Program-made: the position numbers and the translations under genes
Notes under the pieces: generated by a model
What the model was told of the DNA's origin: nothing
The model's input: the letters and a program-made list of their open reading frames with translations, nothing else
Database searches by the model: none
Shown: positions 29,474-31,339 of the stretch, one piece after another
Layout of the letters: each line of letters opens with the position of its first letter
How positions within the stretch are numbered: the stretch's first letter is position 1
Origin: a virus
Reading direction: 5' to 3' (one strand)
IMG/VR virus record: IMGVR_UViG_3300042557_000299
Coordinates: 1-45,599 of that record
Length of the DNA stretch: 45,599 nucleotides

Positions 29474-30166
29474 ATGGCTAAGAATGATTTACCTAAAGCA
29501 CAAGCTGGTGCGGCCTTTAAAGCATTGCGTAAAGGCTTTAAAACTATTGGTACTGTTTATAAAGAAGAAAAAGCTATTGCACAAGCTGAAAAAATTGCTA
29601 AGCGAGAGAAAGCTGCGGCAGAAGCTAAAAAACTTCAACGTATAGAAAAAGCAAAAGCTACACGTGAGGCTAATAAAGCTGCTAGAATTAAAGCTGCTGA
29701 AGAGGCTGCGGCAAAACCAAAGAGAGGTAGAAAGCCAAAAGCTACTCCAGCTCCTGAAACTCCTACTACAAAAAAACGTGGTAGGAAACCAAAAGTCATT
29801 ACTGGTGAAAACCAAGGTTTTTCAAGTTCAGATAAAAAAGGTTTAGGTTGGTATTATGGCACTATTGGTGCTGGTACAGCAGCAACAATTCTTGCAAGCA
29901 AAGCTAAAAAAGCTAAATCTAAAAGTGCAACACCAACTGAAACAACAACTCCAACTGAAAGTACATCTCAACCAAAGGGTGTAGTTGGTAAAGTATTAAA
30001 GTCTGCAGGTAAATATAAATTTGCAAAAGGTGGATCTATGGCTTCTAAACCAGGTGCAGCTAAATATTCTAAGATGACTACTAAACAAACTAAGTCAGCA
30101 GCATCAGCAGTAAAAAGCACAGGTACTAGAAAACCAATGATGCGTCCATCTATTAAAAAAAGATAA
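29474..30166 (+). CDS. Basic H1-like protein with AT-hook-like KRGRKPK motifs
   Basis: 230 aa. The N-terminal half is a charged helix (EKAIAQAEKIAKREKAAAEA). Two copies of KRGRKPK (near residues 78 and 98) are AT-hook-like and should bind the minor groove of AT-rich DNA. An Ala-rich LGWYYGTIGAGTAATILASK follows. Motifs shared with its neighbours are LPKAQAGAAFK at the N-terminus and KFAKGGSMASK near the end. It ends 3 bases before the 20-codon remnant at 30170. DNA compaction in the head is the most likely job. Confidence 0.65.
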   Translation: MAKNDLPKAQAGAAFKALRKGFKTIGTVYKEEKAIAQAEKIAKREKAAAEAKKLQRIEKAKATREANKAARIKAAEEAAAKPKRGRKPKATPAPETPTTKKRGRKPKVITGENQGFSSSDKKGLGWYYGTIGAGTAATILASKAKKAKSKSATPTETTTPTESTSQPKGVVGKVLKSAGKYKFAKGGSMASKPGAAKYSKMTTKQTKSAASAVKSTGTRKPMMRPSIKKR

Positions 30167-30169
30167 CAC

Positions 30170-30232
30170 ATGCAGAATAGTGTACTGTCCATAAAGATTA
30201 AACAACGCCTGAACAAATTAGATAAAAAGTAA
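30170..30232 (+). pseudogene. Remnant start of the head-tail gene, 20 codons
   Basis: An ORF of 20 codons reads MQNSVLSIKIKQRLNKLDKK then stops. It matches the first 18 residues of the intact gene at 30641 (MLNSVIAIKIKQRVNKLD). The positions with the same residue are often coded differently in the two copies (AGT/TCT, AAG/AAA, CAA/CAG, CGC/CGT, AAC/AAT, TTA/CTT). It is therefore the severed original start of that gene, left behind when the endonuclease gene entered. Confidence 0.75.
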
Positions 30233-30233
30233 A

Positions 30234-30647
30234 ATGGGAAGAGATCTTGAACATAAGAAAAAATATCAGAAAGAGTACTATCTAAAAAATAAAGATAGGC
30301 TGCTTAAGTATAGAAAAAATTTTTATGAAGAAAATAAAGAACTTGCAATTCAAAGATCTAAAACCTGGGCAGAAAATAATAAAAGACAAAGAAAACATAA
30401 TGTATTAAAATCAACATATAATATTACTATTGATGATTTTGAAAAAATGTTAGCAGATCAAGATTATAAATGTTATTGTTGTTCAGTAGAGCATAGTGAA
30501 TTAAAAAATGGACTATATGTCGATCACTGTCATAACACAAACAAAGTTAGGGGACTTTTATGTTCAACTTGCAATTTAGCAATTGGTTATGCAAAAGATA
30601 GTATTGATATATTAGAAAATATGATAAAATATTTACAAAGATGTTAA
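30234..30647 (+). CDS. Endonuclease VII-family (HNH-type) endonuclease
   Basis: 137 aa. Residues 80-83 are CYCC; 97-100 are DHCH; 110-114 are CSTCN. The pattern C-x2-C...VDHCHxTxxVRGLLCxxCNxAxG is that of the recombination endonuclease VII family, treble-clef zinc His-Me nucleases often mobile in phages. A basic N-terminal helix (EHKKKYQKEYYLKNKDRLLK) should bind DNA. It starts two bases after the remnant's stop and overlaps the intact gene's start (ATG 30641). AT-rich relative to its neighbours. It behaves as a homing enzyme rather than as the phage's general resolvase. Confidence 0.85.
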   Translation: MGRDLEHKKKYQKEYYLKNKDRLLKYRKNFYEENKELAIQRSKTWAENNKRQRKHNVLKSTYNITIDDFEKMLADQDYKCYCCSVEHSELKNGLYVDHCHNTNKVRGLLCSTCNLAIGYAKDSIDILENMIKYLQRC

Positions 30648-31339
30648 ATTCTGTAATAGCAATAAAAATTAAACAGCGTGTCAATAAACTTGATAGCCAG
30701 GACTATGACAACATTGAATGTTGGCAAGTAGTAGAGGCTTTTAATAAAGCTCAGGTGGAATGGGCAAGAAGACAGCTTCACGGAATTAATGTAGTTAAAG
30801 AAGGTGATGAGGAGTCAACAAGAAGAATAGATGATTTACAAGTGTTGCTTAATACTCAACCACTTTCTGTAAGTAATCAACAAGTTCTTTATAGTGGAGT
30901 TGTTCCAGATAATTATCTTCAGTGGAAGAGAGTTGATACTTATGCTCAAAAAGATTGTTGTGATAATAGAAGAATGGTTGTATATCTTGCTGAAGAAGCA
31001 AATGTCAATCAACTTCTTAGAGATGTAGCAAAGAGACCAAGTTTTGAATGGGGAGAAACATTTGCTACTCTTAAAAACAACTTGATCAACATCTACACTA
31101 ATAATGATTTTGAAGTTGCGTCAGCACAACTAACTTATTATAGACAACCTGTGAAGATTCAAATTCAAGGTTGTGTAGATCCATACACCGGAGTTCAGTC
31201 TACTACAGAAGTTCAGTGTGAGTTTAAAGATGATATAATAGAAGTAATAATAGATGAAGCTGCAAGTATCCTAGCAGGAGATATTGAATCAGGAAACCAA
31301 TTCTCTAGAGGAACAGAAACAGCTGAACGTAACAACTAA
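30641..31339 (+). CDS. Head-tail connector or ring-type structural protein
   Basis: 232 aa. The start is SVIAIKIKQRVNKLDSQDYD followed by NIECWQVVEAFNKAQVEWAR, a helical pattern I recognise from crAss-like and other Bacteroidota phage connector proteins. A beta-rich middle (PDNYLQWKRVDTYAQKDCCD) and a final LxxxAASILAGDIES helix follow. The first 17 codons are a substitute for the severed copy at 30170. Since a functional copy was kept, this gene is likely essential. Confidence 0.6.
   Translation: MLNSVIAIKIKQRVNKLDSQDYDNIECWQVVEAFNKAQVEWARRQLHGINVVKEGDEESTRRIDDLQVLLNTQPLSVSNQQVLYSGVVPDNYLQWKRVDTYAQKDCCDNRRMVVYLAEEANVNQLLRDVAKRPSFEWGETFATLKNNLINIYTNNDFEVASAQLTYYRQPVKIQIQGCVDPYTGVQSTTEVQCEFKDDIIEVIIDEAASILAGDIESGNQFSRGTETAERNN

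Follow-up and report, generated by a model that had tools for sequence, protein, structure and literature searches.

A putative endonuclease VII-type homing element in a phage virion gene that carries a recoded copy of the gene start

The DNA analysed here, referred to as the window, is the whole stretch of one virus record, 45,599 bases in length. Within it, the gene for a 232-aa protein is preceded by a 20-codon open reading frame (ORF), and an endonuclease VII (EndoVII)-type gene lies exactly between the two, as the preliminary description had reported (Table 1). The small frame reads MQNSVLSIKIKQRLNKLDKK* and is closed by a TAA at 30230-30232, after which the intact gene restarts at the ATG at 30641 and begins MLNSVIAIKIKQRVNKLDSQ. 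This start overlaps the stop of the nuclease gene by 7 nt (ATGTTAA), an overlap that is present in all five of the distinct elements described below. The 232-aa protein matches the annotated ring protein of phage csAssE-Sib, virion proteins of Cellulophaga phages and phrog_29507, a virion structural protein, and these matches fit with a crAss-like phage. Judging from this virion (ring) annotation and from its conservation, the gene, hereafter the ring gene, is probably essential. The inserted element is about 470 bp long and is placed after codon 18 of the ring gene, with a left edge that can be set at 30224 to within about 1-2 nt. The final 54 bp of the element repeat codons 1-18 in a diverged form that conserves the protein sequence and is in frame with the gene body.

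Table 1. Features of the locus in window coordinates, with EndoVII-type genes that follow the primase in other contigs
Feature	Position	Strand	Evidence or remark
Upstream gene, 230-aa ORF	29474..30166	+	Left-hand neighbour, given for context; its end is 3 nt from the remnant start
Remnant: native codons 1-18 of the ring gene, two junction codons and stop	30170..30232	+	Start tree, DNA identity
Inserted mobile element: junction stop, endonuclease, recoded start	30224..30694	+	Absent from 78/80 relatives
Endonuclease VII-type gene, 137 aa	30234..30647	+	PF02945, phrog_2914, alignment, dN/dS
Element-borne recoded copy of codons 1-18	30641..30694	+	Groups with other recoded starts
Recipient's ring gene body, codons 19 to end (intact gene 30641-31339)	30695..31339	+	Body tree; ring/virion protein matches
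EndoVII-type genes after primase	L218:3127-3573, L222:3148-3648, L255:3130-3642, L256:2964-3476, L257:2723-3235

The nuclease matches PF02945 (E 4e-22, above the family cut-off) and phrog_2914 (E 2e-29), and its relatives in the PDB are Hpy99I and T4 endonuclease VII. The catalytic domain of EndoVII-type enzymes is marked by the motif CX2-4C, DH(D)H, R, CX2C and N (PMC6083498). The window nuclease possesses this (DHHRN) catalytic motif in full, with C80, C83, D97, H98, H100, R106, C110, C113 and N114 all intact, and these catalytic and zinc residues are invariant across 16 aligned sequences. Among the latter is F-CphI, a homologue of the window nuclease and a demonstrated EndoVII-type homing endonuclease (PMC6083498). 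Between elements the nuclease is under purifying selection, with a dN/dS of 0.10-0.20. Compared with L057, to which it is 99.9% identical over 8.3 kb, the carrier contig L058 has a nuclease copy (L058:3595-3966) that lacks one base and is interrupted by an in-frame TGA; its recoded gene start is undamaged. The L058 nuclease is either a decaying copy or the product of assembly errors.

The likeness of the small ORF to the start of the ring gene, which the preliminary description had pointed out, is borne out by the alignment, in which 14 of the first 18 residues are identical. The accompanying statement that synonymous codon differences affect most of these identical residues was overstated, as another codon is used at 6 of the 14. 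In the window, the DNA of the two starts is 69% identical with a longest exact common run of 8 nt, and across elements the longest identical run is 8-11 nt. The protein alignment of the two scores 71 in the window, against a shuffle maximum of 49; these shuffles and a survey of 202 EndoVII contexts rule out chance similarity. In the window (V5) and in another carrier, L084 (E7), the recoded start and the recipient's remnant agree at a variable residue, which could be due to chance or to conversion.

A DNA search of the locus against cultured phages returned no match, and relatives were therefore drawn from IMG/VR, yielding 80 homologues of the ring gene with 73-86% protein identity. In 78 of these there is no nuclease before the gene, and a single start lies directly behind the previous gene. 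When a second start-like sequence was sought within 1.5 kb upstream in the 78 empty relatives, none was found, the best score being 37 compared with 71-79 for the upstream copy in the carriers. Nuclease-free phages with both starts, which the preliminary description would have counted against an insertion, are thus absent from this set. The same description had anticipated that gene starts in relatives without the endonuclease would resemble the remnant and continue into the body of the ring gene, and the closest ones do so. At the DNA level, the native start of L001-L004 is closer to the window remnant (89% identity) than to the recoded copy (72%), and it runs straight into a gene body that is 93% identical to the window gene over codons 19-36, with >30 identical bases right after the codon-18 boundary. 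Since the remnant is like the start of L001-L004 and the body is continuous with theirs, it is the remnant that represents the native start, and the first 18 codons of the intact gene are of foreign origin.

The same layout has been found in seven contigs that represent five distinct elements (the window, L057/L058, L082/L083, L084 and L325). In all five, both element edges lie at codon 18 and the recoded codons 1-18 are in frame with the body. A gene-body tree was built with the four carriers that have enough of the body (window, L082, L057 and L325). In this tree the window groups with L001-L004, L082 with L059/L078 and L057 with L071, and L325 falls inside the L021/L024/L079 group. The carriers are scattered among empty phages, and a single carrier clade is rejected (dlnL 187, p-AU 1.6e-5). 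In a tree of the 54-nt starts, all five recoded starts form one group with a support of 86, which is modest because the recoded tract has only 54 nt. Each recoded start is nearest to another recoded start, at 6-7 nt, and the remnants are nearest to native starts (the L084 remnant ties with that of L325); for the window, L082 and L325 the nearest native start belongs to the same body group. Serine 4 is coded by AGY in 56 of 56 distinct native and remnant starts and by TCN in all five recoded starts, a change that requires at least two substitutions. Between L057 and L082, identity is 92% for the nuclease DNA, 89% for the recoded start and 75% for the gene body.

The nuclease is thus patchily present at one site and has a history unlike that of its host gene, as befits a mobile gene. 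Independent insertions at the same codon, with recoded starts that fall into one group, show that the recoded start travels with the nuclease, and they uphold the earlier proposal that the element entered the 5' end of the gene and brought a diverged copy of it. A correlation of nuclease and recoded-start distances was sought within the five elements and was not found, so some reshuffling of the two is possible. The use of one codon in several lineages also suggests, from sequence comparison, that the nuclease cuts nuclease-free alleles in a site-specific manner.

The layout extends to other genes. Among the 202 distinct EndoVII contexts surveyed, 187 were scorable; clear cases scored 71-101 and a short helicase case 43, and all other contexts scored 56 or less, mostly inside their own shuffle range. 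A duplicated start was found in three further genes, namely a primase/helicase, a small gene by tail genes and a DEAD helicase. In the T7-like primase/helicase of L110, the remnant MTDSKYLKHIPCESCGSS matches the native alleles L207/L214/L216 at 47-49 of 54 nt, and the recoded start matches them at 27-31 of 54 nt. The divergence of this start is in excess of that of the body (p about 1e-9 for the same alleles), and the diverged tract extends about ten codons past the insertion point. In L180, a small gene adjoining tail genes has the remnant MSKNYFISGEFNVTCDVC and restarts as MKNHFDSGSWNVTCDRC. A homologue of this gene in L419 is accompanied by a different nuclease, whose best PHROG match is phrog_1035 (endonuclease VII). 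At L419:984-1487 this nuclease is fused in frame to a 15-codon native-start remnant and followed by the restarted gene, and it thus uses the host gene's own start codon. The DEAD helicase of L115 is a less sure case, because the same start occurs behind another nuclease, and without a remnant, in L302, which has a helicase with 98% identity over 256 aa.

Further EndoVII-type genes were seen in and around these targets. Two that differ from that of L115 (L302:1061-1504 and L299:1001-1489) lie directly before the same helicase, where they overlap or abut its start codon without a remnant; with several different EndoVII-type genes before one helicase, the helicase start seems to be a hot spot. 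In several phages, EndoVII-type genes are located just downstream of the T7-like primase without a 5' insertion (Table 1). At L186:1298-2795 the gene start behind an EndoVII-type ORF is similar to the end of an intein (VDRTENFIAN), and the context is possibly that of an intein. Weak survey matches (L167, L172, L043, L178, L186, L402 and others) lay inside genes, were of low complexity or were near the shuffle range, and they were left uncounted. In FE44-type T7-like phages, gene 13.5, which precedes gene 14, has the appearance of an ordinary intergenic insertion, with gp14 aligning from base 1 between FE44 and other records and no duplicated start. A duplicated start was likewise sought, and not found, at F-CphI and at the Stenotrophomonas and Salmonella examples, and a scan of prokaryote genomes (20 loci) gave no further case.

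A related arrangement occurs in cultured phages. In T7-like phages of Klebsiella, a nuclease lies before gp12 (nozzle protein, PF25675); it begins where the native ATG would be and extends into a rewritten gp12 start, and there is no remnant because the insertion is at the start codon. The carrier Kp_Pokalde_002 and the empty BUCT-3589 encode an identical MALVSQSIKNLK, and their DNA differs at 8 of the first 36 nt versus 19 of the next 1464 (Fisher p 8e-8). All 8 of the changes in these 12 codons are synonymous, and they stop sharply after the twelfth codon, followed by roughly 140 near-identical bases. The rescue logic is the same as that of the ring-gene element. LM33_P1 (L429:501-540) is without a nuclease before gp12, and its start resembles that of a carrier, the E. 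coli phage KM02 (L428:1833-1872), CAAAGCATAAAAAATCTTAA, and is unlike that of other empty relatives such as Bas105 (CAATCAATCAAGAACCTTAA). Such a start may represent a resistant allele, or else a scar left by an element since lost.

Taken together, the locus is read here, with a probability of roughly 85%, as a free-standing homing endonuclease element whose target is the 5' end of a conserved virion gene and which brings a repair patch of its own. At the level of sequence, the architecture, the common insertion point, the joint mobility, the native half-gene that was kept and the intact, selected nuclease are clear. It is likely that the native start is cut and that the recoded start is resistant. 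The nuclease would cut empty alleles near codon 18, and repair from a carrier would use the native start, later the remnant, as the left arm and the gene body as the right arm, copying in the whole element. The recoded start would keep the protein intact and remove the cleavage site from the carrier. Its divergence would also prevent two kinds of recombination: with the remnant, by which the element would be deleted, and with the recipient's start, by which it would be bypassed. Remnant, nuclease and ring protein would probably be translated in that order, coupled by the abutting or overlapping stop and start codons.

An alternative that is considered unlikely is ordinary intergenic homing with co-conversion, in which the normal start of a diverged donor was dragged along and the foreign allele was never selected for recoding. 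T4 free-standing nucleases are known to co-convert flanks (PMC2988022), and both the few amino-acid differences that the recoded starts carry besides the synonymous ones and the diverged tract of L110, which runs about ten codons beyond the insertion point, would be in keeping with such an event. However, co-conversion leaves unexplained the native remnant to the left of the nuclease and the position of both edges at codon 18 in five elements. The TCN serine occurs in no native allele, and the changes in Klebsiella gp12 are all synonymous and end sharply after 12 codons. Far less probable is the idea that the small ORF is conserved for a function of its own, as a free peptide or leader, and that its likeness to the gene start goes back to a tandem duplication that had nothing to do with homing. 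In each of the five elements the remnant frame has stayed open, and in four of them its stop lies within 2 nt of the nuclease ATG, which makes a role as translation leader for the nuclease plausible, but the ORF is present in none of the 78 nuclease-free relatives, and the remnant tracks the native start of its own lineage. These two observations rule out an independent conserved peptide, and a secondary leader role remains compatible with them. Least credible is a chimeric metagenome contig assembled from two related phages: the ring-gene carriers are all metagenome contigs, but, with the window counted, the layout recurs in seven contigs and five distinct elements, every one of which has a remnant of its own, and the related gp12 case is found in cultured, complete phage genomes.

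The closest precedent for a homing element with its own repair patch is its mirror image, the endonuclease ORFs of fungal mitochondria. These bring a foreign C-terminus to Allomyces atp6 and to Glomus atp6, atp9, cox2 and nad3, with a native end that is near relatives and an inserted end that groups elsewhere (PMC3630166). In both systems, a nuclease ORF lies in a conserved gene together with a diverged replacement end, and the differences are largely synonymous (PMC3630166). In both, the native end is retained as a remnant close to relatives, and the replacement end is in frame with the gene body, here in five elements. The fungal ORFs replace the 3' end, leave the remnant downstream, encode LAGLIDADG or GIY-YIG enzymes and reside in a mitochondrial host, whereas the phage elements replace the 5' (N-terminal) end, leave the remnant upstream, encode an EndoVII-type enzyme and have several target genes. 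F-CphI is of the same nuclease family, with the same catalytic residues and in a small free-standing phage gene, but it lies beside its psbA target (PMC6083498), and the present comparison showed no duplicated or recoded gene start there. Free-standing homing nucleases inside phage coding genes are also found in T-even phages, such as mobE in Aeh1 nrdA and others (PMC2988022). These split the gene into two polypeptides that must reassemble, whereas the phage element here restores the gene by a replacement start.

As in an intein or group I intron, the nuclease gene lies inside a conserved coding gene, and its flanks are the two halves of the target. Unlike in those elements, repair is at the DNA level by the replacement start, with no RNA or protein splicing. 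The insertion has neither an uninterrupted frame nor the form of a spliced insert, and joining the flanks would not yield one gene because the left flank duplicates residues of the restarted protein. The synthetic HomeR drives also have a nuclease that targets a conserved gene and a cassette with a re-coded terminal stretch that restores the protein, 22-27 aa in length (PMC7968924) compared with 18 codons here and 12 in gp12. They are engineered, Cas9-based and act at the 3' end in Drosophila, and the likeness to them is one of logic, not descent. Within the open-licence literature, no report was found of a phage homing endonuclease that replaces a 5' gene end with a recoded one. The principle of a replacement end is already known; what sets the present case apart is the 5' replacement, the EndoVII-type enzymes, the phage setting and the presence in several genes.

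Homing elements usually spare their host by an intergenic position or by splicing themselves out. The elements described here represent a probable alternative route, followed at the 5' ends of several phage genes, in which an important gene is cut and the replacement part is supplied, and as such they are a natural counterpart of engineered home-and-rescue drives. It is somewhat probable, beyond the single locus, that phages host general and repeatedly evolved natural home-and-rescue drives, in which more than one nuclease subgroup invades the 5' ends of conserved genes. In such drives the recoded start would serve as rescue, immunity and recombination barrier, the native start would take on new roles as homology arm and translation leader, and recoded alleles that are resistant would sometimes persist after loss of the nuclease. 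Carrier and empty phages that are near-isogenic exist in culture, and in them cleavage, biased inheritance, resistance alleles and loss are open to direct measurement. Ultimately, when a phage nuclease is preceded by a short "extra ORF", that ORF can be the fossil of a target site, and a block of synonymous changes at a gene start may be the trace of an earlier attack.
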